Assembly: GCA_945787575.1 (NCBI GenBank)
Contig: CALZKB010000019.1
Coordinates: forward strand, 1-53,530
Source: Thermoanaerobaculia bacterium
GTDB taxonomy: Bacteria; Acidobacteriota; Thermoanaerobaculia; Multivoradales; JAHEKO01
DNA: 53,530 nucleotides
Direction of reading: 5' to 3'
This document shows positions 2,234 to 43,944 of this stretch, piece by piece. Each line of letters begins with the position of its first letter. Positions within the stretch are counted from its first letter, which is position 1. The translations under genes were made by a program, and so were the position numbers. The notes under the pieces were generated by a model. The model was not told the origin of the DNA. It was given only the letters and a program-made list of their open reading frames with translations, and did no database searches.

Positions 2234-5200
2234 ATGACGCTGCCAGCCGTTCTTCGCGCCCGAGCTGCGTTCACCATCCTTGCTTCGCTCCTGCTGATCT
2301 TTCCGGTGGTGGTCGCGGCGCAGTCGACGCAAGAGGTCACGCCCGACTTTTCCAAGTGGTATTCCGGCGACGTTCACGTTCACGCCGCGGGCGACGCAGC
2401 GCTCGACGCAAACCGTCGTTGCAGGGAATTCGGAGGCATCATTCAGCAGAGTCCGGAGGAATGCGCCGAGAAGGTGGTCGAGCTGCATTACTCCCGCGCC
2501 GAGGCCAACGGCGTCGACTGGCTGATCTTCACCGAGCACGGCGCATGGCTCGGCTTCGACGAGGGCCGTTACGACCACGACCAGGCTCAGGACGCCTACA
2601 GCCTTCTGGAGGCCGAGATGCGCCGCGTGGCTCGCGAGAAGGGCGTCATCCCCGCGCTCATCGGCCAGGAGGTCGGCACCGCGGCGCCCTTCCCCTGCAC
2701 GCCGAGTCGAGGACACTTCGGGGTCTACACCCAAGCCAGCCTGATTGCGCAGGGCATCACCGACTGCAACGAGGTGCGCTACCTCCGCCAGATCGAGCGC
2801 GCCGACGGCTACGGCGCGATCAACCACCCGCACATCGGAAGCACCTGGAGCTGTTGGTACACCGACGACGACATCCTCGGACCCGAGAACTGCGAAGAGG
2901 GAGCCGTCGATTTCGCCAAGGGGCTGATCGACGTCGTCGGCTTAACCGGTCACGACCGGGTCTTCGCCGGTATCGAGGTGGTCACCAGCAACGAGCTACC
3001 GTCCGAAGAGACGCTCGATCAGTGGGATCGGATCCTCCAGGACGGCTACCGCATCGGCGCCACCGGCGGGGCCGACTCCCACACCGTCAACAAGGGGGCG
3101 CGGCTGGACATCCTGCTCGGCGGCGGCAACGGCAACCACGGCAAGGTCGGCATCCACGCCCGAACCTACGCCTACGTCGACGGCTCGATCAGGCCGGGAC
3201 CCGACTTCGAGCCGAGGGCCTCCAACCACCCGATCAGAATCGCGATCAAGAACTCCCGCACGGTCGCCTCCAACGGGCCGCTCTACCTCCCCCAGGTCAA
3301 CGGCAACTTCCCCGACGACGGCAGCGTCTTCGGGCCCGACCCGAGCTTCGAGGGTGACTCTGTCACGGTCCGCATCGACTGGCCGGAAGGCACTTTCCGC
3401 GTCCTCCGCGAGGGGGCGGACCTCGCCAACCCCGAGCCGGCGGACCGGCTGGATTTCACCAACCGTCCGCAGGAGCTGCGGGTGGTTGTCGGCCACGTCA
3501 GCGAAACGGCGCCCTGCGCCGGAGCGCCTCGCGAGCCTTGTCCGGGCGAGACCGTGGTCGCCGACTACTCGACGACCAACGACGACATCGGCAACGGATT
3601 CGCGCGCATCGAGGTGCCGATCGATCCGAGCTGGGATCGCATCTACGTCCGCACCGAGGGGTTGCAGGGCAACCTCGGCCCCCAGGGCAACCTCTACATA
3701 ACCGGCGCCTACTCGAGCCCCATCTACCTCGAGCGCGGTGAGTTGTCGAGCGGACTGCCGTCCGACCCCAACTGCACTGTGAACATCCTTGCTCGCAACG
3801 ACGACGGCTCCACGCCGGAGCTGCCGCTCCCGTTCCCGGTGAACTTCTTCGGCGCGGTGAAGACCTCTATCTTCGTCAACAACAACGGCAACGTGACCTT
3901 CGACTCGCGCCTCGGTACCTACACGCCCTTCGAGATCACCTCCGACACGCCGCCGATCATCGCCCCCTTCTTCGCCGACGTCGACACCAGAAACCCGGCA
4001 TCGGGCGTCGTCACCTTCGGCACCACCCAGTTCGAAGGCCGTGACGCCTTCTGCGTCTACTGGGATGACGTCGGCTATTTCTGGCAGAGTGTCGACAAGC
4101 TCGACACCTTCCGGCTCTATCTCGTCGACCGATCCGATCTCGAGGTCGGCGACTTCGACATCATCTTCGACTACAAGCAGCTGCAGTGGGAGACCGGCGA
4201 CGCCAGTGGCGGCAGCGGAGGCCTCGGCGGCACCTCGGCGGGAGCCGGCTTTTCGAGCGGCACCGGCGATCCGAACGGCTTCATCCAGCTCCCCGGTTCG
4301 CTGGTCAACGGCGCCTTGCTGGACGGCGGCCCCAACTCCCTGACCGCCGGCTCGCGCGACAGCGGCGGGCAGCCGGGCGTCTGGCGCTTCCCGGTACGCA
4401 GCGGGGCGGCCAGCGGCATCTATGCCTTCGGTGGGACCGTGGTACGTGGCACTTCCGGGGGACCTCCGGTAGCGTTCGCGGTGCTCGAGGTTTGCCCGAC
4501 CGGAAGCGGCAGCTGCACCCTGGCGCTCGCCAACAGCGACGGAGGCTTCACGGCCAGCGGCCTCGCCGCCGGCAGTTACACGGTGCGGGCGTTCCCACCC
4601 GCCGGCAGTTCAGGGCTGGCCGTCGGTAGCGCCGACAGTGGTTTCGTCGGCCCGGCGCCGACACCTCCGGTCGAGGTCGTGATGCCCGAGGTCACCTCGC
4701 CACCGCCGGGTACGACGATCTCGCCGTCGCGCAACGGCTCCGGAGGCGCTCCCTCGGTGCTGATCGGCCAGCCGCTACAGTTGCGGACAACGGCGTGCAT
4801 CGGCGCAACGGTGACTGTCACGGTCTTCCGCGCGGGCAGCAGCGTCTTCGGCCCGGCGCCGATGATCCCGACCTCGCCCGGGAACTTCATCCTCGACCTT
4901 CCACCGTTCACGTCGAGCGGCACGGCAACGGTCGACTTCGTCGTGGAATGTCCCGATGGCTCGGTCACCGGCTTCGAGATGACCGTCTACATCGATCCGA
5001 GCGGGCGGGTGATCGACACCGCCGGCGCCCCCATTCCGCTGGCCGAGGTCGTGGTGCTGCGCTCCGATTCGGAGAGCGGCCCCTTTGAGGCGATCCCGGA
5101 CGGCTCGGCGCTGATGTCGCCCTCCAACCGCGTGAACCCGGACGCCACCAACGTCGACGGACGTTTCGGATGGGACGTCATCGCCGGCTTCTACAAAGTG

Positions 5201-6100
5201 CGCGCCAGCAAATTCGGCTGCCGGTCGCCGCTTGATCCGTCGATTCCGTTCGTCGAGACGGAAGTGCTACCCGTGCCGCCACCTGCTCTCGGCCTCGAGC
5301 TGGTGCTCGACTGTGCGCTGCCGAGCGACGGCGAGCTCGAGATCTTGGCCGGGGTGCCCAACCTCGGTCAGCTTGACAACCCGCTCGCCTTCGCGACCTT
5401 CGGGATCAGCTGCGACGTCGGCGGCTCGCCGGTCGACTTCGGCACCGTCACCGTGGAGCTCAACCAGTCGGAGGTCGTGACCGGGCTGCCGGTCGGTGCG
5501 CCTTGCACCACCTCGGTGCTCGACGTGTCGGAAGGCTGGACGTTCTACACCGACGCGTCCACCGTCACCACCATCCGTCCGCACGACACAACGCTGACCG
5601 AGTTCGGCTTTGTCGAGGGGCAGTTGACCGCGAGCCTCTTCCTCTCGCTGGTGCCGGCCGAAGGCTCCACCGCCACCGGCGGATCGGCGTTGTTGACCGT
5701 CGCGTGCGACTCGGGAGCCTTCGTCTCCCAGACGGTCGTCTTCGACCAGTCGGTCGAGCTCTCCGGTCTTGCCGTCGGCGATCGGTGCGACGTCTCGGTC
5801 ACCGACACCGTCGGGCTCGCCGTCGAGCCGCCGATGAGAGAGGTTCGAGTCCTGCCCTACGACGCCAACGTCGCCTGGTTCCGCGCCGACCTGCCGGTCG
5901 ACGATCCGTGTGATGACGACGACGATTCGGACTCAGACTCGGACTCAGACTCAGACTCGGACTCGGACTCGGACTCGGATTCGGAGTCGGATTCCGACTC
6001 GGACTCGGACGACGGCTGCCCCGGCGACGATGACGACGACTCGGACAGTGACTCTGAGGGCGACTCGGACGACGACGACGAGGATTCCGATGGGGACTGA
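2234..6100 (+). CDS. Secreted PHP-domain / NIDO protein with Ser-Asp repeat tail
   Basis: The product has 1288 residues. The ATG at 2234 is preceded by AAGGAGGAG and opens a clear signal peptide (cleavage near AAQS, residue 30). Residues 42-290 form a PHP-like metal-binding domain: HVH 48-50, TEHG 100-103, NHPHIG 197-202 and GADSHT 279-284 supply the usual His/Asp ligands. Family knowledge suggests a phosphoesterase-type fold; the substrate is unknown. Residues about 515-690 match the extracellular NIDO domain (IFVNNNGNVTF, then APFFADVDTR). Several carboxypeptidase-regulatory or Ig-like domains follow to about 1220. The last 65 residues are almost only Asp and Ser, broken by CPG. That tail is acidic and could bind calcium or act as a spacer or adhesive surface. 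It stands alone, with repeats on both sides. The domain order is unusual; the catalytic role is uncertain. Confidence 0.85.
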   Translation: MTLPAVLRARAAFTILASLLLIFPVVVAAQSTQEVTPDFSKWYSGDVHVHAAGDAALDANRRCREFGGIIQQSPEECAEKVVELHYSRAEANGVDWLIFTEHGAWLGFDEGRYDHDQAQDAYSLLEAEMRRVAREKGVIPALIGQEVGTAAPFPCTPSRGHFGVYTQASLIAQGITDCNEVRYLRQIERADGYGAINHPHIGSTWSCWYTDDDILGPENCEEGAVDFAKGLIDVVGLTGHDRVFAGIEVVTSNELPSEETLDQWDRILQDGYRIGATGGADSHTVNKGARLDILLGGGNGNHGKVGIHARTYAYVDGSIRPGPDFEPRASNHPIRIAIKNSRTVASNGPLYLPQVNGNFPDDGSVFGPDPSFEGDSVTVRIDWPEGTFRVLREGADLANPEPADRLDFTNRPQELRVVVGHVSETAPCAGAPREPCPGETVVADYSTTNDDIGNGFARIEVPIDPSWDRIYVRTEGLQGNLGPQGNLYITGAYSSPIYLERGELSSGLPSDPNCTVNILARNDDGSTPELPLPFPVNFFGAVKTSIFVNNNGNVTFDSRLGTYTPFEITSDTPPIIAPFFADVDTRNPASGVVTFGTTQFEGRDAFCVYWDDVGYFWQSVDKLDTFRLYLVDRSDLEVGDFDIIFDYKQLQWETGDASGGSGGLGGTSAGAGFSSGTGDPNGFIQLPGSLVNGALLDGGPNSLTAGSRDSGGQPGVWRFPVRSGAASGIYAFGGTVVRGTSGGPPVAFAVLEVCPTGSGSCTLALANSDGGFTASGLAAGSYTVRAFPPAGSSGLAVGSADSGFVGPAPTPPVEVVMPEVTSPPPGTTISPSRNGSGGAPSVLIGQPLQLRTTACIGATVTVTVFRAGSSVFGPAPMIPTSPGNFILDLPPFTSSGTATVDFVVECPDGSVTGFEMTVYIDPSGRVIDTAGAPIPLAEVVVLRSDSESGPFEAIPDGSALMSPSNRVNPDATNVDGRFGWDVIAGFYKVRASKFGCRSPLDPSIPFVETEVLPVPPPALGLELVLDCALPSDGELEILAGVPNLGQLDNPLAFATFGISCDVGGSPVDFGTVTVELNQSEVVTGLPVGAPCTTSVLDVSEGWTFYTDASTVTTIRPHDTTLTEFGFVEGQLTASLFLSLVPAEGSTATGGSALLTVACDSGAFVSQTVVFDQSVELSGLAVGDRCDVSVTDTVGLAVEPPMREVRVLPYDANVAWFRADLPVDDPCDDDDDSDSDSDSDSDSDSDSDSDSESDSDSDSDDGCPGDDDDDSDSDSEGDSDDDDEDSDGD
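5924..6012 (+). repeat. Coding microsatellite for (Asp-Ser)n
   Basis: Tandem 6-mers of the form gactcg/gactca/gattcg encode alternating Ser-Asp. Synonymous variation between units (tcg, tca, tcc) shows the tract is not a fresh slippage product and is maintained at protein level. Confidence 0.85.
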
Positions 6101-6101
6101 C

Positions 6102-6188
6102 GGCCACCCTTTTCGCAGAACAGGTGGGAACTGCGCCGCACCGAGAACAGGTGCCGAGAACAGGTGCCACCCTTTTCGCAGATCGGCT
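6102..6188. repeat. GGTGCCACC-core repeat cluster after the PHP/NIDO gene
   Basis: Contains ccacccttttcgcagaacagg at its start and again (shifted) at about 6168, with a perfect 13-bp head-to-tail duplication of ccgagaacaggtg at 6141-6153 and 6154-6166. It begins two bases after the stop codon of the preceding gene. The rest of the spacer to 6394 shows nothing recognisable. Confidence 0.8.
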
Positions 6189-6394
6189 GAACCTGAGGAG
6201 TCTCTCCGCGCGGGAGTGGGCTAGCGGGCTGTCAGCCTGACCTAGCGCGACGTTGCGTTGGACCCAGAACGCACTGTTCAAGCGCTTCTGCCCGCTTTCG
6301 GTGCTCGAATGGTCCGACTCGAATCTGCTGGTGAGAGGTGCGCTGGTGAGAAATGGCAGCCTTTTGTTAACCGGCCGCTCGAGGGCGAGGCGAC

Positions 6395-6607
6395 CTATTG
6401 AGTCAAGAAGTCGAAGATGTTCCCCAACATCTTGGTGTCCGCCTGGAACATCTCGGTGTAGCGACAGCGCCGGCAGATGATGGTGGTGAAGCGCCGGCCC
6501 TGGACGTCGAAGATCTTGCTCCAGAATCCGCCGGCAGCTCGAATCTCGCCGGTCTCGTGTTCGGGGTGTCCGCACTTGGGGCATCGATAGGACTGAGGAA
6601 TTGTCAT
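6395..6607 (-). CDS. Small zinc-ribbon protein (DUF2082-like)
   Basis: The product has 70 residues. Two CxxC knuckles, CPKCGHPEHE near the N-terminus and CRRCRYTE in the middle, form a zinc ribbon. The conserved pattern of GEIRAAGG, FDVQGRRFTTIICRRC, YTEMF and GNIFDFLTQ fits the DUF2082/Zn_ribbon_13 family, annotated as nucleic-acid-binding or GTP-binding in various genomes without firm function. I chose the ATG at 6607 because GGAGG sits five bases upstream; a GTG at 6613 would overlap that site. It is divergent from the broken membrane gene at 6707, with about 100 bp between them. Confidence 0.8.
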   Translation of the reverse strand: MTIPQSYRCPKCGHPEHETGEIRAAGGFWSKIFDVQGRRFTTIICRRCRYTEMFQADTKMLGNIFDFLTQ

Positions 6608-6706
6608 CGTCACCTCCGTAGCTGATACGGCTGCGCCGTGCGGTTCATTTCATGGTGTGTGGGTTGTGGCGCGCTAGACTCGATCGACCTTCTCAAGGAG
6701 ATGGCG

Positions 6707-7110
6707 ATGAGCAATCTGGCGTTGCGCTTCATTCGCTGGGGCACCGGCCTTCTGGTGATCGGGCTCCTAACCGGGTACGGGCCGTTGGGGCAGTATCTAC
6801 AGGGAGGAGCGAACCCCTCCTGTCCCGCGGCACCCGTTCACGGTCACGCGATTCTGCTGGGCTGGGTCGGGATGACGATCTTCGGCTTGGTCCACCGAGC
6901 AATTGCAGATTGGCCGAGCGGCGGAGCTCCTTCCCTAGCCGTCGTCAAGGCACACTTCTACTTCTCGGTGATGGGCATGCTCGGTGCATGGGCGAACGGC
7001 ACCTTCGGCTACGCCGCTTGAGCTTGTGGGTTGGGATCAGCGGCATTTTCTTGTCCCTCTACGCCGCAGGGTGTTTGCTTTGCGTGGGTCGTCTTTCGGT
7101 CGACGGCGTA
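6707..7110 (+). pseudogene. Heme-copper-oxidase-like small membrane protein, frameshifted
   Basis: The ATG at 6707 follows AAGGAG by six bases. The first frame encodes membrane segments containing VHGHAILLGWVGMTIFGLVH and AHFYFSVMGMLGAWANGTFG, the pattern of short subunit-I-like proteins related to cytochrome oxidase, in which such histidines would be haem or quinol ligands. It ends early at TGA 7019-7021. The next frame continues the same hydrophobic protein with LSLWVGISGIFLSLYAAGC to about 7110. A one-base indel near 7018 therefore breaks the gene; the true C-terminus cannot be fixed. Function is inferred from pattern only. Confidence 0.55.
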
Positions 7111-7134
7111 CTCACCCGAGTAGGGAGGACGATC

Positions 7135-7187
7135 TTGCTATTCCTTGCTATTCCTGTGAGGCCTCGAGTCGGTGAGGCCTCGAGTTG
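7135..7187. repeat. Two adjacent short tandem duplications
   Basis: TTGCTATTCC is duplicated perfectly at 7135-7144 and 7145-7154. It is followed at once by a 16-bp near-perfect duplication (gtgaggcctcgagtcg / gtgaggcctcgagttg, 7156-7187). They lie in the spacer between the broken membrane gene and the FG-GAP gene. Confidence 0.85.
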
Positions 7188-7359
7188 GGGGAGGTATCAA
7201 GGACCTGTTCTCTTGGGGTGGTTTCGCTGGAAGGACGACTGCGGTACCCTAAAGTCCAGCTGCGACGGGGGGAGCGGCCGTCCGGGGTGCTGGTTCCATG
7301 AGCCATGGGACTGGCTTGAGGCTCGCAAGCCGTTGACCTGATTTGAGGAGGCCCCCTTC

Positions 7360-9735
7360 ATGAACGCACGCCCGATCTTTGTTTGCCTTCTGGCTCTTAT
7401 CGCCTTCGGTCTGCCTTGGGGCGACTTGGAGGCGGAATCCCGAGGCGTCGAACGCCTGGCCAAGGAGAACCGGGACGCGGGCAAGGAGGTCGACGCCCAG
7501 GGTCGCGTAATCCGAACCTCGGACGGCGAAAAGGTGAGCTTTCCACAGCGGGCCGCGAACCTGGCTTCACCGTTTCAGGCTCGACCCATTCAGGAGTCAG
7601 GGCAGGCGTCGCCGCCGGCGCGCAGTAGTGAGGGCACCGGCGACCCCCCGGACCTCGAGATGGACTGGTACTGGCCTGCCTTGGGTGTCGGGATCGGCGA
7701 CAGCGGGCTGTTTGTGGAGGATCTGGACCTGGATGGCAACCCCGAAGTCGTGGCCGCCGCCGGTCGAACCGGCTTTGGCCCGAATACCTACTGGTACACG
7801 CTCGCTTGGAACGGCACCGACTACGAGCGCGAGTGGACCTCTCTGCCGATGGCGGAGCCGATCGCGGCCCTCGTCGTTGCGCAGGTCGACGCGGATCCGG
7901 CGCTCGAGGTGCTGCTGGCCTCGGGCTCGACTGTCTGGATCTACGATGGGAGCGATCGCGGACTTCAGACCTCCATCGCTGTTGACGTCGTGCCCAAGGC
8001 CCTCGCCGCCGGCGACTTGGATGCCGACGGCGTTGCCGAGATCGTCGTCTGCGACGAGGACGACCTCTATAGCTACTCCGTGGCAACTGGAGAGCAGGAG
8101 CTCGTGCGGCTGGGGTTCGGCGGGATCGCCCTTGACCTTGGCCAAGTGGACGATGACGCGGCGCTCGAGATCGGTGTCACCAACGGGGAACTCCCCGCTC
8201 ACGTGCTCGATGGCGTCACCGGTCTGGTCGACTGGGGGCGCAGCGACGGCCTCGGGCGCGTCATCGGCTTCGGCGACCTCAATGACGACGGTTACGACGA
8301 GGTGGTCGGCGGTTTCGCCTGGACCACGGGAGTCCGAGCCTACGACGTCTCTGCCGATACGCTGCTGTGGGAGGAGCCGGTTTTCAACCTGGCGACCCTT
8401 CGAGTGCAGGACGTCGAAGGCGATAGCCGGCCGGAGGTCATCTTCGGGGACGCGCAGTGGGGTGAAGTCCATGTGCTCGACCAAGGCGGAACTGAGCTGT
8501 GGGCTGTCGACAACCCCGAGCATGGCACGACGGGCGTGGTAGTCGGTGACGCCGATGACGACGGAGCTCTCGAGGTGTTTTGGGGTGCCGGTCACACGTC
8601 CACCGGTCCCGACTATCTCTTTGCCGCCGATGCCGAGACGCATCTGCAGGAGTGGCGCAGCGTGGACTTGGTGGGGCCGTTCCTCGGGCTCGACTTCGGT
8701 GATATCGACAATGACGGCGACGAGGAGTACCTGGTCACGACCTTCGCGTCTGACAGTGGATACGGCGACGGTTTGTACCTGATCTTCGACGTCAACACGC
8801 GAACCCTGGAGCACGTTAGCGAAGAGCCGACGGGGTTGAATTGGACTAGCGCGTGGGGAGGACAGGTCCTCAACCTCGACGGCGATCCTCAGCTCGAGAT
8901 CTGTATGACGACTGGAATCACCTATTCGGGCTGGATCGCCTGCTTCGACGGTCTGACTCACACCGAGGAGTGGCACTTCGAGATCGCCTCCGGCCTCTCC
9001 TTCGGCTCCCTCCTCGCTGCCGACGTCGACGGTGACGGTGACCGTGAGCTGGTGGCTGGCAACATCAAAGAGACGACAGGCGCAGACGGGGTCTATGTCT
9101 ACGCCCTCGATCCGGCGACGGGGCTCTTGTTCTGGCGCAGTCCGGACCTCGGCAACTCCTGGTACAACCTCACAATGCTCGAGGTCGGAGACGTCGATGG
9201 CGACTCCGAGCTGGAGGTCGTCGTCGCTTCCGACGGCGACTTTGTCGCGATTCTGGACGGTGAGACCGGTGCGATCGAACTTCCGGCGACTTCCCATGCG
9301 GTCACCGCCCTGAAGCTGACGGACATCGATGGCCTGGGAGGACTCGATATCGTCATCGGCACGGAAGACGGCACCTTGGCGGTCATCGACCCGTCGAATG
9401 GGACCGCCTCCATCGTCGGGGGCCCACTCGGCGGAGCGATCGAAGGGATCGAGCGGGGGGTCTTCGCGGGGCAGGATCTGTACGCGATCTCGAGCAACGG
9501 CAGCATCGGCCTCTATCCGGCGCTCGACGGGGCAGCGATCGTGTCGACGTTCCTCGGTCTCGGCACGGGGCGGCACGACAGCCTCTTGCTGGGTGACTTC
9601 CGCGGCGATGGGAAGACGCGGATCCTCGCGAACAACGTCTTTGGCGTCGCCGAGCTGGTGACTTCGGCGGAACAGATCTTCGAAGACGGTTTCGAGTCAG
9701 GCGATACCTCGGCTTGGAGTGCGACCGTGCCTTGA
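7360..9735 (+). CDS. Secreted FG-GAP/VCBS-type beta-propeller protein
   Basis: The product has 791 residues. GAGGAGG precedes the ATG. Residues 1-25 form a signal peptide (FVCLLALIAFGLPWG). From residue 120 on there are at least eight propeller blades with Asp-rich calcium-loop motifs such as DLDLDGNPEVV, DLDADGVAEIVV, DLNDDGYDEVV, DIDNDGDEEYL, DVDGDGDRELV and DVDGDSELEVVV. The protein ends in IFEDGFESGDTSAWSATVP, a tail almost identical to that of the BNR-repeat protein ending at 49845. This suggests a shared C-terminal export or anchoring signal. It is probably an extracellular, calcium-stabilised scaffold or binding protein; no enzymatic motif is visible. It appears monocistronic. Confidence 0.85.
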   Translation: MNARPIFVCLLALIAFGLPWGDLEAESRGVERLAKENRDAGKEVDAQGRVIRTSDGEKVSFPQRAANLASPFQARPIQESGQASPPARSSEGTGDPPDLEMDWYWPALGVGIGDSGLFVEDLDLDGNPEVVAAAGRTGFGPNTYWYTLAWNGTDYEREWTSLPMAEPIAALVVAQVDADPALEVLLASGSTVWIYDGSDRGLQTSIAVDVVPKALAAGDLDADGVAEIVVCDEDDLYSYSVATGEQELVRLGFGGIALDLGQVDDDAALEIGVTNGELPAHVLDGVTGLVDWGRSDGLGRVIGFGDLNDDGYDEVVGGFAWTTGVRAYDVSADTLLWEEPVFNLATLRVQDVEGDSRPEVIFGDAQWGEVHVLDQGGTELWAVDNPEHGTTGVVVGDADDDGALEVFWGAGHTSTGPDYLFAADAETHLQEWRSVDLVGPFLGLDFGDIDNDGDEEYLVTTFASDSGYGDGLYLIFDVNTRTLEHVSEEPTGLNWTSAWGGQVLNLDGDPQLEICMTTGITYSGWIACFDGLTHTEEWHFEIASGLSFGSLLAADVDGDGDRELVAGNIKETTGADGVYVYALDPATGLLFWRSPDLGNSWYNLTMLEVGDVDGDSELEVVVASDGDFVAILDGETGAIELPATSHAVTALKLTDIDGLGGLDIVIGTEDGTLAVIDPSNGTASIVGGPLGGAIEGIERGVFAGQDLYAISSNGSIGLYPALDGAAIVSTFLGLGTGRHDSLLLGDFRGDGKTRILANNVFGVAELVTSAEQIFEDGFESGDTSAWSATVP

Positions 9736-9843
9736 CGAGGCGCTAGGTACACGCCGCGCAGCGCTGGCCGCCACCCTGGTCAGAGCGGTCGGGGTCGCCT
9801 GGGGGTGTGACACCTCAGCCCTGGGGGCGCTATTCTGGTCGCG

Positions 9844-12690
9844 ATGAGCGACCGGGAGACCGTCGCACCTGAGCGGGGCACGGGCGAAGGAAAGCGTGTC
9901 GTGACCGGTGAGGAGATTCTTACCATCGTGCGCCAGGTGGTGGAGGAGCTCCACCCCAACTCCGCCGGCCAGCGGATGACCCTCGACAGCTCCCTCGACC
10001 GCGACTTGGCGCTCGACAGCCTCGGGCGGGTGGAGTTGGTTGGGCGGCTCGAGAAGGCCTTCGGCGTCGGGCTGGCCGAGCGTGTGGTGGCGACCGCGGA
10101 AACTCCACGCGATTTCCTGCGAGGGCTCTTGAGCGCCGCTGGCACTGCCATGGCTGTCGTCGAGTCGGCAGCGCTCGAGGAGGCCGAGCTGGGCGGGGCG
10201 GAGCCCGCGCCCGAGCGCTCGCGCACCCTGGTCGACGTGCTCGACTGGCACGTCACCCACCACGCCGAGCGGCGCCACGTCACGTTGCTGACCGCCGACG
10301 GCAAGAGCGAAGCGCTGACCTACGGCGATCTACGGCAGAGGGCGTTGGCGGTGGCCGCCGGGTTCCAGCAGCAAGGGTTGGAGCCCGCGCAGACGGTAGG
10401 CTTGATGCTACCGACCAGCCTCGACTACTTCACCGCCTTCTATGGCGTGCTGTTGGCTGGCGGGGTGCCGGTGCCTCTCTACCCGCCGGCGCGCCTCAGC
10501 CAGATCGAGGACCATCTCAAACGCCAAGCCGGGATTCTATCGACGGCGCTCGCCCGCTTGATGATCACCGTGCCCGAGGTCCTGCCGCTCGCCCGCCTGC
10601 TGCGCGCGCACGTGCCGACTCTGCGTCGCTGCCTGACGGTTGCCGAGCTGAGCGACCCCGACGCCGATCCCGGCGCAGGCAACAACCTGCCTGCTGTGCA
10701 CGAGCACGACATCGCCTTCCTGCAATTCACCTCGGGCAGTACCGCGGACCCCAAGGGTGTCATCCTCACCCACGCCAACCTGCTGGCCAATCTGCGCTCG
10801 ATCGGCAAGGCGGCCAACCTGTCAGCCGACGATGTCGTCGCGAGCTGGCTGCCGCTCTACCACGACATGGGGTTGATCGGCGCCTGGATGGGCAGTTTGT
10901 ACTACGCGATGCCGCTGGCTTTGATGTCACCGCTCGCTTTCCTCACTCGGCCGTCGCGCTGGCTGTGGGCGGTGCACCGCCACCGAGCGACGTTGTCGGC
11001 TGCCCCCAACTTCGCCTACGAGCTGTGCCTGAACAAGATCGAGGACGCCGAGATCGAGGGTCTTGATCTGTCCTCGTGGCGCGCCTCGCTGAACGGAGCC
11101 GAGCCGGTGAGCTCGGCGACCATCCGTCGCTTCGTCGAACGCTTCGCCGACTACGGCTACCGGCCAGGGACGATGATGCCGGTCTACGGTCTCGCCGAGA
11201 GCTCGTTGGCGCTGGCCTTCCCGCCGGTCGGTCGTGGCCCCCGCGTCGACACCGTGAGCCGCGAAGCGCTGGCCGGGGCGGGGCGCGCCGAGCCGGCGGA
11301 GGACGAGTCCGAGGCTGTGCGCTTCGTGGGTGCCGGCTTCTCCCTCCCCGATCATGAGATTCGCATCGTCGACGGGACCGGCGCCGAAGTCGGCGAGCGC
11401 CAGGAGGGTCGGATCGAGTTCCGGGGTCCCGGAGCGACCAGCGGCTACTTCCGGAACCCGGAGGCCACGGCGAAGCTCTTTCACGGCGACTGGCTCGACT
11501 CCGGCGACCTCGGGTACCTCGCCGGCGGGGAGCTGTTCGTTACCGGTCGGGCCAAGGACGTGATCATCCGCGCCGGGCGCAACATCTACCCCCAGGAGCT
11601 GGAGGAGGCGGTCGGCGGCCTGGACGGGGTGCGCAAGGGTTGTGTCGCGGTCTTCGGCAGCACCGACGGGGCGACCGGCACCGAGCGATTGATCGTCTTG
11701 GCGGAGACGCGGGAGACCGAGGACGAGACACTGGGACAGCTGCGCGAGCGCATCCAAGTGCTGGCCGTCGACCTCGTTGGCACACCGGCCGACGAGGTGG
11801 TCATGGTGCCGCCGCACACCGTGCCCAAGACCTCGAGCGGGAAGATCCGCCGGGCCGCCGGTCGCGATCTCTACGAAGGCGGTCGCTTGCGCCGTCGCGG
11901 TCCGGTCTGGTGGCAGGTGGCACGGCTGACCTGGGCCGGAGCGCGCCCGCAGTTGGTGCGCACCGGGCGGGCGGCGCGCGAGCTCGCCTACGCCGGTCGC
12001 TTCTGGACGGTGGTCGGGCTGGCGGCGGTTCCTGTCGTCGCCGGGATCGTGCTGCTGCCCAAGCTGGCGCGGCGCCGGCGCATGGCGCGCGGCGCGGCGC
12101 GCCGCATCGCGCGCTTGACCTCGACTCCCATCCGCGTGACGGGCGAAGAGCACCTGGCCGGCAGCGGACCGTTCGTGGTGGCCGCCAACCACGCCAGCTA
12201 TCTCGACGGCTTCGCGCTCACCGCGAGCTTGCCGACCGAGGGCGCCTTTCTGGCCAAGAGCGAGCTGCAGAGCAGCTTTGTCGCCCGCTTGTTACTCGAG
12301 CGGCTCGGCACGGTCTTCGTCGAGCGCTTCGATCCCAACAAGGGAGCCGAGGACATCCGGCGGGCGGCCGAGACGATCGCGACCGGTCAGTCTCTCCTGG
12401 TGTTTCCGGAAGGCACCTTCGACCGCGCGCCCGGCTTGCGGCCCTTCCGTCTCGGCGCCTTCCTGCTGGCGGCGGAGTCCGGTACACCGGTGGTGCCGGT
12501 CGCCATCGCCGGCACCCGCTCGGTGCTGCGTGGCGACAAGTGGTTCCCGCGCCGGGGGGCGGTCAAGGTCACGATCCGGCCGCCCATCGCTCCCGACGGC
12601 ACCGATCTCGCCGCCGCGGCCCGGCTGCGCGACGCGGTGCGCGCCGAGATCCTCATGCACTGCGGTGAGCCGGATCTCGGCAGCCGGTAA
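9844..12690 (+). CDS. ACP - fatty acyl-AMP ligase - PlsC acyltransferase fusion
   Basis: The product has 948 residues in three parts. Residues 22-100 are an acyl-carrier domain with the phosphopantetheine site DSLGRVEL (Ser59). Residues about 115-680 are an ANL adenylating enzyme of the FAAL type, with FTSGSTADPKG at about 295 and the C-terminal lysine region KTSSGKIRRA. After a membrane segment (VVGLAAVPVVAGIVLLP), residues about 760-945 are a PlsC-like acyltransferase with the NHxxxxD motif as NHASYLD (His783) and FPEG at 854-857. A reasonable reading is that a fatty acid is activated as acyl-AMP, loaded on the fused carrier and passed to a lyso- or glycolipid acceptor, an all-in-one Aas analogue. 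The order of steps is inference. No strong ribosome site precedes ATG 9844, but no better start exists in frame. Confidence 0.9.
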   Translation: MSDRETVAPERGTGEGKRVVTGEEILTIVRQVVEELHPNSAGQRMTLDSSLDRDLALDSLGRVELVGRLEKAFGVGLAERVVATAETPRDFLRGLLSAAGTAMAVVESAALEEAELGGAEPAPERSRTLVDVLDWHVTHHAERRHVTLLTADGKSEALTYGDLRQRALAVAAGFQQQGLEPAQTVGLMLPTSLDYFTAFYGVLLAGGVPVPLYPPARLSQIEDHLKRQAGILSTALARLMITVPEVLPLARLLRAHVPTLRRCLTVAELSDPDADPGAGNNLPAVHEHDIAFLQFTSGSTADPKGVILTHANLLANLRSIGKAANLSADDVVASWLPLYHDMGLIGAWMGSLYYAMPLALMSPLAFLTRPSRWLWAVHRHRATLSAAPNFAYELCLNKIEDAEIEGLDLSSWRASLNGAEPVSSATIRRFVERFADYGYRPGTMMPVYGLAESSLALAFPPVGRGPRVDTVSREALAGAGRAEPAEDESEAVRFVGAGFSLPDHEIRIVDGTGAEVGERQEGRIEFRGPGATSGYFRNPEATAKLFHGDWLDSGDLGYLAGGELFVTGRAKDVIIRAGRNIYPQELEEAVGGLDGVRKGCVAVFGSTDGATGTERLIVLAETRETEDETLGQLRERIQVLAVDLVGTPADEVVMVPPHTVPKTSSGKIRRAAGRDLYEGGRLRRRGPVWWQVARLTWAGARPQLVRTGRAARELAYAGRFWTVVGLAAVPVVAGIVLLPKLARRRRMARGAARRIARLTSTPIRVTGEEHLAGSGPFVVAANHASYLDGFALTASLPTEGAFLAKSELQSSFVARLLLERLGTVFVERFDPNKGAEDIRRAAETIATGQSLLVFPEGTFDRAPGLRPFRLGAFLLAAESGTPVVPVAIAGTRSVLRGDKWFPRRGAVKVTIRPPIAPDGTDLAAAARLRDAVRAEILMHCGEPDLGSR

Positions 12691-12769
12691 GGCGAGGCGT
12701 GTAGTTGCACCTCTTCTCGCGGGCCATCATCGGAAATGCGGCTACAGGATACTCATCCCGGCACCTCCG

Positions 12770-14038
12770 TCACCGCGCGATGCAGCGGTCGTAGGCCGTT
12801 CGACAGTCATGGTCTCGGGCGTCGATCTTCTCGGCGCAGACCCGACACTGGCCCTCGGTCTCGACCTCGATGCAATCGACGATGTCGAGCACAGGATAGT
12901 CGAGCAAGCTAAAGACCGTGGAGACACAGCTCTGTTTGCTCGACACCACGGCGGGCCAGATCTCGCACAGTTGCTCGCAGGTCTCGGGCGGCTGCCGCAC
13001 TCGACCGTCACCCCGGATCTCGACTCCGCCGGCGCCGACTCGGACCCGGTTCGACGAACCGGTCGCGCCTTCGCGACCTGACACCTCGACGCCGCCGGGG
13101 CCAACCTTGACCCGTCCGCCGCTGCCGCCGTCTCTTCCCGACACCTCGACGCCGCCTGGTCCGATGCGCACGTGCGTGCCCGCAGCGGCGGAGCTCCTCG
13201 ATCCGGCCCCGGAGCCCGCGCCGGCCGGAGTGCCGTGATCGGCCGAGCGGCTGTAGGGAGAATCCGAGTTGCCGCCGCCGTCGATGAATCGGCCGGCTCC
13301 GGTCTCGAGGTCGCCGACGAGGTTAGAGCCCGCCGCGCTGACGACGCCATCCGCCTCGATGAGCACCCCGTAAACGCCGCCGTCGATGGTACTGTTGCGT
13401 AGGCGAACCGTTCCCGATCCTACGATGCGCAGCGCAGCGCCGGCCGCCACGACATGGCTGTCGGACAGCAGCAGCTCACAATCGCCGAGCAGCGTGATTC
13501 CATCCGCCTCGCTCCGGACGTAACGATGGACGACCGTCAGCCGATCGTTGTCGCCGCACGAGAAGGCCTCGCCCGCGGTGAGCTCGGGATCGGCGGCACC
13601 CGGAATCTGCTCTCGGCGGTTGCCGCCGGCGTCGATCAGCTCGGCGTTGCCCGCGGCCCGCAACCCGCCCCTGAAGGTGCTGCCACGAACCTCGGCGGTG
13701 GCGTTGCCGTCCGCGTAGACGGCGGCCCGCCGGCCTTGGACGAAACTGCCTTGGACCGACACCGAGCCGTTACCGTCGACCCGGACGGCGACCGCTCCGG
13801 CGTCGATGTGGCTGTCGACGATCCGGAGGTCGCAGTTGCCCGAAACGACGACGCCATCGCCCGGGGTCGAGATCGAGCGATTGGCGATCAGGATGTCCTG
13901 ATTCTCATCGCAGACGATCGGTTCGGCCGCGGGTTTCGAGGACAGCGGCAGCAACGGGCCTTGATCGGCCCGAGCCACCACGGCGGTCAGTAGCAAGCCG
14001 GCGGCGACCCAACTCCGTCGAACAATCGTGGACTCCAT
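12770..14038 (-). CDS. Secreted DUF3060-like protein with Gly-rich repeats and Cys-rich tail
   Basis: The product has 422 residues. AAAGGAG precedes ATG 14038, which opens a signal peptide (SWVAAGLLLTAVVARA). Two long DUF3060-like modules follow, recognisable by VCDENQDILI, then GVVVSGNCDLRI, and by SCGDNDRLTVV, then GITLLGDCELLL; such modules form parallel beta ladders. Next come three near-identical short repeats of the form VxVGPGGVEVSGR at roughly residues 290-345. The last 65 residues hold nine cysteines, including CEQLCEIW and CRVCAEKI. It is transcribed divergently from a winged-helix/TPR regulator across about 200 bp, so that regulator may control it. Function is unknown; an oxidised extracellular structural protein is likely. 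Confidence 0.75.
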   Translation of the reverse strand: MESTIVRRSWVAAGLLLTAVVARADQGPLLPLSSKPAAEPIVCDENQDILIANRSISTPGDGVVVSGNCDLRIVDSHIDAGAVAVRVDGNGSVSVQGSFVQGRRAAVYADGNATAEVRGSTFRGGLRAAGNAELIDAGGNRREQIPGAADPELTAGEAFSCGDNDRLTVVHRYVRSEADGITLLGDCELLLSDSHVVAAGAALRIVGSGTVRLRNSTIDGGVYGVLIEADGVVSAAGSNLVGDLETGAGRFIDGGGNSDSPYSRSADHGTPAGAGSGAGSRSSAAAGTHVRIGPGGVEVSGRDGGSGGRVKVGPGGVEVSGREGATGSSNRVRVGAGGVEIRGDGRVRQPPETCEQLCEIWPAVVSSKQSCVSTVFSLLDYPVLDIVDCIEVETEGQCRVCAEKIDARDHDCRTAYDRCIAR

Positions 14039-36159: not shown

Positions 36160-36653
36160 GAAACCTCCATGGGTCAGTGCTTCTGTTGGTCATCCATGAC
36201 TTTGGCGGCAGCATGCTCGGATCTACCTCGAGCGGAGCGCCAAGCGAGACCGAGCTTCGCGGACGCGTCCCCCGCCGGCCGCGAAGGGGGGCGCGACTGC
36301 GGAGATCAGTGAGAGAATGCCCATAGCTTCTCTCTGTCGGTCCTATGAGTCATCGTACGAGGCCAGGGACTTTCCTGTCCCCGCGCAAACGGGTAGCTGC
36401 GGGCGATCGCCCTGGAAGATGGGCGTCGATCGACGCAAGCGAGCCGCTCGAGGTGGTGTGCGACTCCTTGCTCAAGGAGCTACGCTCCTGCTGGCGGAGT
36501 TCCGGTCAGCCGAGAGCTGACGGTTCGTGGAGGGCCAACGGTGACCCCAGCGACGGCATGGAACCGAAACTCGCGACGTACTCGAGGCGTAGGGTTGAGT
36601 GTCGCACGCTGGCGCCGGCCGCGAGAGAAGGACCGACCAGGGGAGAGTCCGCC
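36160..36653. other. Divergent spacer, no recognised gene
   Basis: This lies between the lipoprotein start and the propeller gene start. A frame is open through it from 36345, but the encoded residues have no signal or domain and no ribosome site supports it. It holds a partial inverted repeat (aggagctacgctcct, about 36475). Promoters for both flanking genes should lie here. Confidence 0.55.
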
Positions 36654-38858
36654 ATGAACCGCGCCAAGTCCGAGGAACCTAATCCGCGAACACCGCTGCG
36701 CCTGTGGCCCGGCATCGTCCTTGCGGCGTTGATCTTGCTGATCAGGTTCGGCGTCCCCATCGTCGCTCCCGACGCCGCGATGTTCGCCTTTTTCGGCGAG
36801 GCCGTCTGCGCGCTCGGCGTAGTGGTGTGGTGGGTGTTCTTCAGTCGAGCGCGCTGGGTCGAGCGCCTGGGCGCCATCGGTCTGATCGCCGTCTCGCTGA
36901 TGGTGACGCCGCGCTTCGTCGACGAGTCGATCACGACGGCAGGCATGGGTGTCTCCTTCTACGTCCTCGCTTTCCCGCTCCTCTGTCTCGCCCTCGTCGC
37001 CTGGGCGGCGGCCAGCCGGCGCCTCTCGGATCGCGTCCGGCTAGTCTCGATGGTCGCGGCCATCTTGCTCGCGAGCAGCGTGTGGACGCTGCTGCGCACT
37101 GACGGCATCCACGGTGCCGGCGACCAGGAGCTGGCGTGGCGCTGGGCGAAGACGGCCGAGGACCGGCTCCTGGCCGGCGACGGCGAGGAGCCGATGGCGC
37201 GTCCCTTTCCCCTGCGGGCAGAGGAGGCGGTCGCCGACTGGCCGGGGTTTCGAGGCCCTGATCGCAACGGCGTCGTCCCCGGCGTGCGGATCGAGACCGA
37301 CTGGACCGCCTCACCGCCCGTCGAACTCTGGCGCCGAGCGATCGGTCCGGGCTGGTCGTCCTTCGCGGTACACGGCGACCGGCTCTACACCCAGGAGCAG
37401 CGCGGTGAAGACGAGGTCGTCACCTGCTACGACGCGAGCAGCGGCGACCCGGTGTGGAGACATCGCGACGCGGTCCGCTTCTGGGAGTCGCACGGCGGCG
37501 CCGGTCCGCGCGCCACGCCGGCCCTCCACGGCGGGAAGGTCTATACCTTCGGCGCCACCGGGATCCTCAACGCGCTCGACGCTGCCAACGGCACGGTCGT
37601 GTGGTCGCGCGATACGGCATCCGACACGGGCAGGGAGGTCCCGCACTGGGGCTTTACGAGCTCGCCCCTCGTCGTTGGTGACGATGTCGTCGTCGACACC
37701 GGCGTCCTCGTTGCGTACGATCTCGCGACCGGAAACCTACGGTGGCGCGGACCCGAGAGCAGCGTGAGCTACAGCTCGCCGCATCCGGTGACGATCGACG
37801 GAGTCGAGCAGATCCTGCTACTGAGCGGCAGGGGAGCGGTGAGCGTCGCTCCGGCCGACGGCACCACGCTCTGGGAGCACTCGTGGCCGGGCTCGAGCAT
37901 CGTGCAGCCGGCCATGACCGCCGACGGCGACGTTCTCATCACCGCCACCGGCGCCGCTGCCGGGATCGGCACCCGCCGCCTCGCGGTCGCGAGCGGAGGC
38001 GACGGCTGGAAGGTCGAAGAGCGCTGGACGTCCAACGGCCTGAAGCCCTACTTCAGCGATCTTGTCGTCCACGACGGCTACGCCTACGGCTTCGACGGCA
38101 GCATCCTCTCCTGCATCGACCTGGAGGACGGAGGAGATGGCCGCGTTCCGCCTACCCGTCACTCGCGGCTAGTTGGCCCATTCGAGGCCAGGATACGCTC
38201 CATGGACGCCTCAGAGGAGGGACATCTCAGAGATGGATGGCCCGGCCGGACCCATCGCCTCGTTGTCAAGGAGGAATTCGTATGGTCACTGCCCGAGCAG
38301 CCGGTTCGGAACGACGCGGACGGCTACTCACCGGTGGCGACCGCTTCGACCGGTGGTCCCCTGGCCATCCACGGCGGCTCCACCACCCTGGTCGGGGACC
38401 GAGCCGCGGTCATCATGGCGGTCAACCACGAAGGAGACCTCTTCTCCGGCTTCGTCAACGGCCTGGTCCACGAGATCGGTCACGGGTTGACGCTCCCGCA
38501 TCTTCCCGACGACATCGACGGAACGTGGCAGGGGAACCAGGCCAGCGGCACCTGGAGAAGCTGGGGCTGTGAGTCCACGAGGCAAGGAGCCTCTGGAAAG
38601 GCGAGTTGGAGCTCGGAGGGACCGGTAGCGATCCCGTGGCGCTACCGGGCCTTGCCGTGGGGTACACTCGTACGCTGCGCCATCGCCTGCTGGACGAGGT
38701 GCGGATCATCAAGGTCATCCGCCCCCAGCTCGATGCCGACAAGAGGCTCCAGGCCAGGTTCTGGGCGGAAGCGAAGTCAGCCGTCCGGCTGCGTCACCCG
38801 AATATCGCGACGATCTACGATTTCACGGTCGATGAAGACGGGGTCGCGTTCATCGTGA
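36654..38858 (+). CDS. Membrane PQQ-like propeller protein, truncated and fused to foreign sequence
   Basis: ATG 36654 has GGGGAGAG upstream. Residues 15-145 contain five membrane spans. From residue about 195 an eight-blade PQQ/BamB-like propeller starts (WPGFRGPDRNGVV, LWRRAIGPGWSSFAVHGDRL, then VVWSRDTASD and WGFTSSPLV), and it breaks off in SCIDLEDG at about 38130. The next 140 codons are unrelated and include NGLVHEIGHGLTLPHLPDD, a zinc-peptidase-like fragment. After about 38600 the frame only runs antiparallel in sense to the kinase gene and is Arg/Ser-rich noise. The first 490 residues are therefore the real gene; the rest marks a deletion or insertion junction. Intact family members usually finish the propeller with two more blades. 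Confidence 0.7.
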   Translation: MNRAKSEEPNPRTPLRLWPGIVLAALILLIRFGVPIVAPDAAMFAFFGEAVCALGVVVWWVFFSRARWVERLGAIGLIAVSLMVTPRFVDESITTAGMGVSFYVLAFPLLCLALVAWAAASRRLSDRVRLVSMVAAILLASSVWTLLRTDGIHGAGDQELAWRWAKTAEDRLLAGDGEEPMARPFPLRAEEAVADWPGFRGPDRNGVVPGVRIETDWTASPPVELWRRAIGPGWSSFAVHGDRLYTQEQRGEDEVVTCYDASSGDPVWRHRDAVRFWESHGGAGPRATPALHGGKVYTFGATGILNALDAANGTVVWSRDTASDTGREVPHWGFTSSPLVVGDDVVVDTGVLVAYDLATGNLRWRGPESSVSYSSPHPVTIDGVEQILLLSGRGAVSVAPADGTTLWEHSWPGSSIVQPAMTADGDVLITATGAAAGIGTRRLAVASGGDGWKVEERWTSNGLKPYFSDLVVHDGYAYGFDGSILSCIDLEDGGDGRVPPTRHSRLVGPFEARIRSMDASEEGHLRDGWPGRTHRLVVKEEFVWSLPEQPVRNDADGYSPVATASTGGPLAIHGGSTTLVGDRAAVIMAVNHEGDLFSGFVNGLVHEIGHGLTLPHLPDDIDGTWQGNQASGTWRSWGCESTRQGASGKASWSSEGPVAIPWRYRALPWGTLVRCAIACWTRCGSSRSSAPSSMPTRGSRPGSGRKRSQPSGCVTRISRRSTISRSMKTGSRSS

Positions 38859-40180
38859 TGGAGTTCATCGACGGCGAGGATCTGGCACGGAAGATAGCCC
38901 GCGAAGGGCGACTGCGGGTCAGCCAGACCATGACGATTGCGATTCAGTGCCTCAAGGCGCTCGACTATCTGCACCGCAGCCAGTTCGTGCACAGGGACGT
39001 CTCTCCGGACAACCTGATGCTCACCAAGGACGTCGATGGAGAGGACCTGATCAAGGTGATCGACCTAGGGATCGCCAAGCAGCTCGAGGACGACCTGAAT
39101 CTCACTCAGGAGGGCTTGTTCCTGGGCAAGATGAAGTACGCCTCGCCGGAGCAGTTCGGCAGCCGGGGCGGCGAGCTCGATGGCAGAAGCGACCTCTACT
39201 CCTTCGGTGTCGTGCTGTACGAGGTACTCACCGGCGTTCATCCGTTCACGGCGGAGAACCAGCAGGCGATGATGGCGGCTCACCTCTTCCTCCCACCCGG
39301 GGAGTTCGCGGCGAGCGATCCTCAGGGTCGGATTCCAGAGGCGCTGAGGATGATCCTCCAGCGGGCGCTGGCAAAGGACCCCAACGATCGATTCCAGACG
39401 GCGAGGGAGATGGCCGAGGCGATCGCTCCCGTGAGTGAGTCCTGGGAGGAGGTCGAACCCAGCCCAGCCGAAGAACCCGCGCCCACAGTGATCGAGCCCC
39501 TGGCTCCGCCCCTCGCATCGCGCACGACCCAGGAGAGACTCGACCGACAGTTCGAGGCGGTTCCGACAGCGCCGCCCATTCGCGCCGTTGACGAGTCAGA
39601 AAAGGACCCGTCGGAGGCCATCGCGGCAACCCGAGCGGCGAAACCGGTCGAGGCGGCGGAGCCGGTCGAGGTGGCGAAGCCGGAAAGGGTCCTCGCCCCC
39701 GCGAAACCGGCATCGAGAACGCTGCCGGAGTGGCTCCTCCCAGCGGGCGGGCTCGCCGCGTTGTTTCTGGTTGCGTTCACGATCGGTTCGTGGTTCCTGG
39801 GAGGACGGGATGAGCAGGAAGCGCCACCGGACCCACTGGAGGCTTCGGCTCCGCAGCTCGACGAGACGCCGGCCGTGCTGGGGACGATACAAAGCTTCGT
39901 CGAGGCACACGTCAACCTCGATTTGCAGGGGCTCCGCTCGATCTGGCCGGCGTTGGCCGGCGGTCGATTGGACGCTGTGCAGGAGTCGTTCTCCGGTGCC
40001 GAGTCCATCGATATGAGTATCGATGACTGCACCGTGCTCACCGATGGCGCCACCGCCACGGCGGACTGTCTATTGCGCCAGAGCTATCGACCCAAAAGCG
40101 GCACCCCCCAGTCGGTGGAGCGCACGGTTCAATTCAGACTCCGCAAGGGTGACAGCGGCTGGGTCATCGAAGACTACTAG
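38606..40180 (+). CDS. Membrane Ser/Thr protein kinase with incomplete N-lobe
   Basis: About 524 residues from a TTG at 38606; no better start is visible. The glycine-rich loop is not recognisable. The sequence becomes kinase-like at HRLLDEVRIIKVIRP, which keeps the ATP lysine (Lys36), followed by the alpha-C Glu55. The catalytic loop is HRDVSPDN (Asp131), the magnesium motif is DLG rather than DFG (153-155), and the activation segment has YASPEQF. A Pro/Ala/Glu-rich linker, one span (GGLAALFLVAFTIGSWFLGG) and an external NTF2-like domain (IQSFVEAHVNLDLQGLRSIW) follow. The gene starts inside the mosaic end of the upstream propeller gene, so its 5' part was probably lost. Activity is doubtful unless another start restores the N-lobe. 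Confidence 0.78.
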   Translation: MELGGTGSDPVALPGLAVGYTRTLRHRLLDEVRIIKVIRPQLDADKRLQARFWAEAKSAVRLRHPNIATIYDFTVDEDGVAFIVMEFIDGEDLARKIAREGRLRVSQTMTIAIQCLKALDYLHRSQFVHRDVSPDNLMLTKDVDGEDLIKVIDLGIAKQLEDDLNLTQEGLFLGKMKYASPEQFGSRGGELDGRSDLYSFGVVLYEVLTGVHPFTAENQQAMMAAHLFLPPGEFAASDPQGRIPEALRMILQRALAKDPNDRFQTAREMAEAIAPVSESWEEVEPSPAEEPAPTVIEPLAPPLASRTTQERLDRQFEAVPTAPPIRAVDESEKDPSEAIAATRAAKPVEAAEPVEVAKPERVLAPAKPASRTLPEWLLPAGGLAALFLVAFTIGSWFLGGRDEQEAPPDPLEASAPQLDETPAVLGTIQSFVEAHVNLDLQGLRSIWPALAGGRLDAVQESFSGAESIDMSIDDCTVLTDGATATADCLLRQSYRPKSGTPQSVERTVQFRLRKGDSGWVIEDY

Positions 40181-42702: not shown

Positions 42703-43458
42703 ATGAAGAAGAGAGTACCTTCGTGCACCCTCGGTATCCTCCTTGTGTTCGCTCTCTCCGCCGCCCAAAGCTACGGAGGGACCGCTCCTGCCGGCGGGGG
42801 CGACCCGGGCGTCCTGCCCGCGGACCTCAACCTTGGCGCTGACGAGTTCTGGGAGAATTTCGACTCTTACGTCGACGGTAGCGAGATGCATGGCCAGGGC
42901 GGCTGGAAAGGCTGGGACAACAATCCCGCGTTCGGCGCATTGGTGACCAGCGCCTTCTCGCACAGCAGTCCGCACTCTGTGGATATCACCGGCAGCTCCG
43001 ATCTCGTGCACGAGTTCGCGGGCTTCACCAGCGGCCAGTGGGTCCTGACCGCCTGGGTCTACGTTCCGGCCGGAACGCCGCTGAGCTACATCCTCGCGCT
43101 CAACACCTACGCCGACGGCGGACCCTATAACTGGTCGACGCAGGTTTTCTTCGACGCCATGAGTGGGGTAGTGGTGTCCGATTTCGATGGCGGCACGCTA
43201 CCGATCGTCACCGACGACTGGGTCGAGTTTCGGGTCGAGATCGACCTCGACACAGACACTCAGGTGGGCTATTACGACGGCCAGCAGCTGTACTCCAAGA
43301 GCTGGACGGAGGGTGTCAGCGGAGGGGGCGTGCTCAACATCGCGGCGATCGATCTCTTCGCCAATGGAGCGACGTCGGTCTACTACGACAACGTCTCCCT
43401 GTGCCCCGCGTCGGGCTGCTTGGTACCGGTCGAGCTGAAGTCGATCTCGATCGACTGA
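42703..43458 (+). CDS. Secreted concanavalin-like (jelly-roll) protein
   Basis: The product has 251 residues. AAAGGAAG precedes ATG 42703, which opens a signal peptide (LGILLVFALSAAQSYGG). The mature protein reads like a LamG/concanavalin-type jelly roll: FWENFDSYVDG, GQGGWKGWDN, SPHSVDITGSSDLVHEF, SGQWVLTAWVYVP, WVEFRVEIDLDTDTQVGYYD and SVYYDNVSLC. Such domains bind carbohydrate or act in adhesion. It ends CLVPVELKSISID, a short hydrophobic/acidic tail that resembles endings seen in other secreted proteins of this kind of bacterium and might be an export tag. It is 94 bp upstream of the RiPP-like gene. Confidence 0.72.
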   Translation: MKKRVPSCTLGILLVFALSAAQSYGGTAPAGGGDPGVLPADLNLGADEFWENFDSYVDGSEMHGQGGWKGWDNNPAFGALVTSAFSHSSPHSVDITGSSDLVHEFAGFTSGQWVLTAWVYVPAGTPLSYILALNTYADGGPYNWSTQVFFDAMSGVVVSDFDGGTLPIVTDDWVEFRVEIDLDTDTQVGYYDGQQLYSKSWTEGVSGGGVLNIAAIDLFANGATSVYYDNVSLCPASGCLVPVELKSISID

Positions 43459-43527: not shown

Positions 43528-43551
43528 TGGACTGGAACGGGAAGGCCTATC

Positions 43552-43944
43552 ATGAGCCAGCAATGGTCCGAAGAGTCCTTTAGAGATAGCCTCAAACAGC
43601 TTCTGCGGCGGGCCGCTATCGATCCGACTTTTCGTCAGAAGTGCTTGGAAAGCGCCCAAGGAGCCATTCAGGAGATCAGTGGTCAGGATGTGTCTAGAGA
43701 GGTCCCGGTTCGGTTTGTCGAAGAACTGGAGGAGCTGGTGTTTGTCTTGCCGAAACAGCTCACCGGAGCCGACGGTCTAACGGTCGAGGACTTGCGGTCA
43801 GCGGCCGGCGGTGACGATGGGGGCCCCGAGAGGGGCGAGCTCGTGAAGATCCGCAGACACGTCGAGGGCTGTCTGGCCGCCGCTCTGGCCTATTATCGGT
43901 GTGTTGGGGACCTCAAACGACTATCGTTGGGGCCCAAGAAATAG
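43552..43944 (+). CDS. Candidate RiPP precursor with nitrile-hydratase-type (NHLP) leader
   Basis: The product has 130 residues. ATG 43552 follows GGGAAGG. Residues 10-66 resemble the NHLP/TOMM leader fold: SLKQLLRRAAIDPTFRQKCL, an intermediate helix, then VPVRFVEELEELVFVLP. This leads to GLTVEDLRSAAGG (75-87), a leader ending in Gly-Gly as in peptides cut by C39-type proteases. The 43 residues beyond (88-130) start DDGGPERG and include EGCLAAALAYYRCVG, with Cys107 and Cys117. No YcaO, LanM, radical SAM, C39 protease or exporter is encoded nearby, so any modifying enzymes would act in trans. It converges with a glycosyltransferase gene one base away. The alternative is a small non-RiPP protein with an NHLP-like fold. 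Confidence 0.55.
   Translation: MSQQWSEESFRDSLKQLLRRAAIDPTFRQKCLESAQGAIQEISGQDVSREVPVRFVEELEELVFVLPKQLTGADGLTVEDLRSAAGGDDGGPERGELVKIRRHVEGCLAAALAYYRCVGDLKRLSLGPKK

Follow-up and report, generated by a model that had tools for sequence, protein, structure and literature searches.

The stretch of DNA analyzed here (53,530 nucleotides in full, hereafter the window; contig C19 of draft genome G000, which comprises 5.59 Mb in 484 contigs and is 97.5% complete) encodes a single, diverged NHLP-type protein, most likely a remnant or a repurposed precursor and not part of a working pathway. NHLP stands for nitrile-hydratase-like, proteusin; bacteria obtain modified peptides by cleaving precursors of this type. 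Ordinarily, the leader of an NHLP docks a modifying enzyme (YcaO, LanM, or others), and a C39-ABC exporter then cuts after a Gly-Gly and exports the core. Such cores are variable and often rich in Cys, Ser, or Thr. The analyses established the homology of the leader, the positions of its motifs, the lack of detectable C39, YcaO, LanM, and NHLM genes in the draft genome, and the sporadic distribution of the gene. The features of the gene and its product are collected in Table 1.

Table 1. Features of the NHLP-like gene and its predicted product, with positions in the window.
Feature	Position	Strand	Basis
Diverged NHLP-type (proteusin-like) precursor gene, intact ORF, 130 aa	43552..43944	+	ATG to TAG, 130 codons; homology searches
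Ribosome-binding-like purine-rich stretch GGGAAGG	43539..43545	+	Read directly; ends 6 nt before the ATG
NHLP-type leader, residues 1–87	43552..43812	+	Profile and DprE2 match; predicted three-helix bundle, strand, and short helix before the GG
L(X)4L motif LTVEDL, residues 76–81 (L76, L81)	43777..43794	+	−12 to −7 from the leader end
Gly-Gly, residues 86–87, presumed leader/core boundary	43807..43812	+	Aligned with the AGG of bona fide NHLPs
43-residue tail, candidate core peptide	43813..43941	+	Net charge +3; 2 Cys, 1 Ser, 0 Thr

The reading frame of the gene scored best among the three plus-strand frames, and an AAGG motif was found 6 nt upstream of its ATG. Its codon usage fit the window genes more poorly than that of its neighbors did, and its GC3 was 0.66, compared to 0.76–0.89 for most confident neighbors. 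The earlier note, made from the sequence alone, had quoted the elements RRAAIDPTFRQKCL, FVEELEELVFVLP, and GLTVEDLRSAAGG in a 130-residue product, along with a 43-residue tail containing two Cys, and all of these were present. It had also described the gene as an orphan, which was accurate for the neighborhood, as no modifying enzyme, C39 protease, or RiPP exporter was identified among the 30 larger window ORFs scanned. On the same strand, 93 nt upstream, positions 42703–43458 encode a secreted protein of 251 aa that bears an apparent signal peptide and matches no Pfam family; a shared transcript with the NHLP-like gene is possible. Elsewhere in the window, a PQQ-type beta-propeller ORF (36345–38858) runs ~250 nt into the beginning of a Ser/Thr kinase ORF (38606–40180) in a different frame, which may reflect a misassigned start for one of them or a frameshift.

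By sequence comparison, the first 87 residues are a diverged NHLP leader, with a resemblance beyond chance. The TIGR03793 profile, a check that the earlier note had suggested, matched the 130-aa protein at 31.3 bits (E = 1.4e-7), aligning residues 14–87 to profile positions 6–77 of 77. The curated cut-off for this family is 50.9 bits, so the protein falls outside it on the formal test; the three-copy cluster L040 includes a likely genuine NHLP that was likewise below the cut-off, at 44.0 bits. That cluster (8716–10288), from a Rhizobium MAG, consists of three tandem NHLP precursors with different cores, of which one was scanned. A phmmer search of the PDB (177,635 sequences, single-sequence query) returned 9CJX as the one strong match, with 54 bits, an E value of 1.5e-13, and 41% identity. 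This entry is the NMR structure of the proteusin DprE2 from Desulfotomaculum sp., and residues 2 to GG87 of the window protein aligned with few gaps to the end of the solved leader. Together with the aligned Gly-Gly, the TIGR03793 and 9CJX E values bear out the NHLP-type leader and Gly-Gly boundary that had been proposed from the letters of the sequence.

The possibility was also considered that the gene is not an NHLP and instead represents part of a nitrile hydratase alpha subunit. Weak TIGR01323 and NHase_alpha profile matches to the protein point in that direction, as do the nitrile hydratase chains recovered by phmmer from the PDB, which matched only at an E value of about 1e-3 and 23 bits, compared to the 54 bits of DprE2. 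The homology to NHase alpha is present with the metal-binding segment deleted; the alignment crosses this NHLP-specific deletion unbroken and ends at the GG, and the CxxCSC metal site is absent from the 130-aa sequence. On these grounds the fragment was rejected, and we consider it highly improbable.

An AlphaFold2 model built from an 11-sequence alignment predicted helices at residues 7–23, 25–33, and 35–43, a strand at 53–57, and a further helix at 78–84, which is the proteusin order minus the second strand. The mean pLDDT of the model was 54 (70–80 in the helices), and the tail was unreliable. The top Foldseek match was again 9CJX (probability 1.00, E = 0.02), with nitrile hydratases next. 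Because DprE relatives were inside the alignment used for the model, this fold match is supportive and not independent proof. Fold prediction from the single sequence was uninformative.

The motifs of the leader are where they would be expected in a proteusin. Specifically, the proteusin L(X)4L motif has been published at −12 to −7, the same place as in the window protein (PMC10858898), and the helix that carries it is the docking site for modifying enzymes (PMC10858898, PMC12455567). The A-G-G at residues 85–87 was common to nearly all aligned relatives, and GG86–87 lined up with the GG of all of them. Some common NHLP features were missing from the protein, namely the Pro of the "DP/NP" turn, the Pro after position 47, and the Pro-rich "PDP" hinge.

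The tail (DDGGPERGELVKIRRHVEGCLAAALAYYRCVGDLKRLSLGPKK), whose Cys are C107 and C117, had no relatives in 149 genomes of the class and on that basis counts as variable. The relatives of the leader have differing tails, in keeping with the pattern of a conserved leader and a variable tail that the earlier note had anticipated; homologs conserved over their whole length, which it had named as evidence against its reading, were consequently not what was found. The tail was also considered as an amphipathic cationic bacteriocin, and this was rejected, as its helical moment was unexceptional and was reached by 21% of shuffles.

The presence of maturation and export genes was investigated across the draft genome. 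Profile searches identified no Peptidase_C39 and no YcaO in the draft genome, and no LanM-type synthetase was found in it with a LANC_like search that should have shown one. No TIGR03796 (NHLM C39-ABC) match in G000 was above the cut-off, and the best TIGR03797 score in this genome was 331 bits against a cut-off of 709. No second NHLP was found in the genome either, the DprE2-leader query returning only this gene (E = 8.8e-14) apart from a single insignificant location. The whole-genome TIGR03793 search missed the 43552–43944 gene itself, so the negatives for weak families are not absolute. For strong families such as C39 an oversight is improbable, because C39 domains in relatives score E values of about 1e-33 or better. 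The gaps of the draft (~2.5% of the genome) could nonetheless hide a small export locus. Two MsbA-like exporters with long frames (contigs C45 and C113) were considered as C39 exporters and rejected; they start with other domains or a membrane region and contain no C39 by profile.

The NHLM exporter was the strongest correlate of NHLPs in a 2010 study (PMC2887384). TIGR03796 was over its cut-off in all seven of the NHLP-bearing relatives tested (G039, G052, G020, G108, G142, G093, and G333) and in none of eight same-genus or same-family genomes without NHLP matches. This co-occurrence agrees with the published correlation, to which the window genome, with a leader and no exporter, is an exception.

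The only LANC_like match in the genome was a 792-aa kinase-LanC fusion on contig C192, which resembles a class IV LanL at 155.9 bits, far under the model cut-off of 650. No NHLP lies beside it. The locus (L025, 3472–6908) includes the kinase-LanC, with a putative zinc motif (WCSG...CCG), and upstream of it a 270-aa ORF without family matches and a 75-aa ORF; it is possibly an unusual lanthipeptide-like locus of its own. Nothing ties this enzyme to the NHLP-like gene, whose tail, with one Ser and no Thr, offers it little substrate.

These results bear on whether the gene could be a functional orphan precursor matured in trans, which we regard as unlikely. The leader would then dock a distant enzyme, such as the C192 kinase-LanC, and a 43-residue cationic peptide with one ring or disulfide would be released after the GG by another protease, or by a C39-ABC missing from the draft. 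The ORF is intact with its GG and L(X)4L preserved, a LanC-domain synthetase exists in the genome, NHLP precursors distant from their machinery have been documented (PMC2887384), and the assembly is about 97.5% complete, all of which would suit such a peptide. However, the assembly contains no C39 peptidase and no NHLM ABC1 over the cut-off, the C192 enzyme has small upstream ORFs of its own and no adjoining NHLP, and the composition of the tail is poor for lanthionine or azole chemistry. The orphan-precursor reading of the earlier note stood in its anatomy and in the local orphan status of the gene; processing in trans by the expected machinery was not supported, as no C39, YcaO, LanM, or over-cut-off NHLM exporter was found in the genome.

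Searches of two same-genus and fifteen same-family genomes (G001–G017) did not recover the gene. In a tree of leaders, the window protein joined the DprE group with a support of 90/87 on a branch 1.4 long, a length at which the placement is unsure. Named relatives clustered in this tree with a genome from the same phylum as the window, which makes Acidobacteriota the probable phylum. The new leader-bearing family that had been offered as the other possibility is unnecessary, since the leader belongs to the known NHLP clan, with DprE as its closest member. The phosphofructokinase (PFK) encoded 2–3 kb from the NHLP-like gene is 70–89% identical to that of several same-family genomes, from which we conclude that the contig fits its bin and is native; a misbinned contig was rejected on this identity. 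No synteny with the relatives was observed around PFK, and without a common gene order there no empty site is demonstrable. A viral or plasmid origin was rejected as well, with no relative in viral contigs or plasmids and no PHROG match.

The explanation we favor, which we hold to be about evenly balanced between right and wrong, is a horizontally acquired, stranded, and fast-diverging DprE-like NHLP precursor that is not canonically matured. The gene would descend from a DprE-like RiPP precursor of the NHLP family (proteusin type). Its leader keeps the L(X)4L docking motif and the Gly-Gly boundary and appears to retain the NHLP helical bundle; a core-like tail of 43 residues comes after it. 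The precursor may have been acquired by horizontal transfer without its pathway, or may have outlived that pathway, and would now be stranded and diverging fast, presumably with loss of function. Such a history is consistent with a singleton NHLP without machinery, its absence from G001–G017, its lower GC3, and its long, DprE-joined branch. Counting against it are the intact ORF, the plausible ribosome-binding site, and the preserved GG and L(X)4L, which are unexpected for an old relic, as well as the draft state of the assembly (484 contigs, ~2.5% missing) and the kinase-LanC elsewhere in the genome.

The same long branch and the lack of canonical machinery in the genome could also reflect an exapted NHLP-fold protein, in which the leader would have taken on a new role as a small, stable protein, the GG would be vestigial or a linker, and the tail would be a helical extension and not a core. 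The tail is indeed poor in modifiable residues and helix-prone at 108–118 (in the alignment-based model, with low confidence), and NHLP leaders are known to fold as stable proteins (PMC10858898). Nevertheless, the protein keeps both the GG and the L(X)4L, elements without an evident purpose beyond RiPP processing, at their exact positions, and no conserved orthologue was found in the genomes, plasmids, and viral contigs searched, so we doubt this origin. A lone NHLP-fold protein kept functional without NHLP machinery, whether exapted to a non-RiPP role or using a processing route new to the clan, is put forward only tentatively.

An NHLP leader is normally accompanied by a C39-ABC exporter dedicated to it, and this genome keeps the leader and the cutting site only. 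Under the favored reading of a stranded precursor, the gene would capture a RiPP system eroding after horizontal transfer; it could otherwise be a starting point for new roles of the NHLP fold. For annotation, the lesson is that finding a leader with a GG site is not enough to call a biosynthetic locus.

Among known systems, DprE2 is like the window leader over residues 2–87, including FR-x-x-CL, VRFVE, FVLP, L(X)4L, and AGG. L038 (Peptococcaceae BICA1-7) also encodes the DprE2 leader, in a group of four NHLP paralogues whose cores are short and variable, with tails such as AGETQGKCYGFGY and KAPNGTGYSFGY; these lie 4–9 kb from two NHLM-type ABC transporters, one of them with a C39 domain. The DprE copies are tandem paralogues with cores of 12–19 aa near an NHLM ABC with C39, whereas the window gene occurs singly, has a 43-aa tail, and lacks such a transporter. 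With the TIGR03793 proteusins, the window protein shares a near-full profile alignment, a terminal GG, and a tail that appears variable, and it differs from them in its sub-cut-off score, the lack of an NHLM exporter, and a tail that is not rich in Cys, Ser, or Thr. The NHLP-LanM loci of Acidobacteriota (L039, L041, and L042) have an AGG-bounded NHLP leader, at 27–30% identity over the whole precursor, and their NHLP gene precedes an ORF of 1069–1075 aa (LanM in L041), which the window gene does not. These loci span the region around 4000–13500. In L041, the NHLP adjoins LanM and an opposed NHLM C39-ABC/ABC2/OEP export set, and the ORF arrangement of L039 and L042, judged by size, is the same. 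The helical bundle and beta region of the nitrile hydratase alpha subunit (TIGR01323) are distantly homologous to the window protein; the alpha subunit carries a metal-binding segment, whereas the window protein passes over this segment and ends in a GG and a tail.
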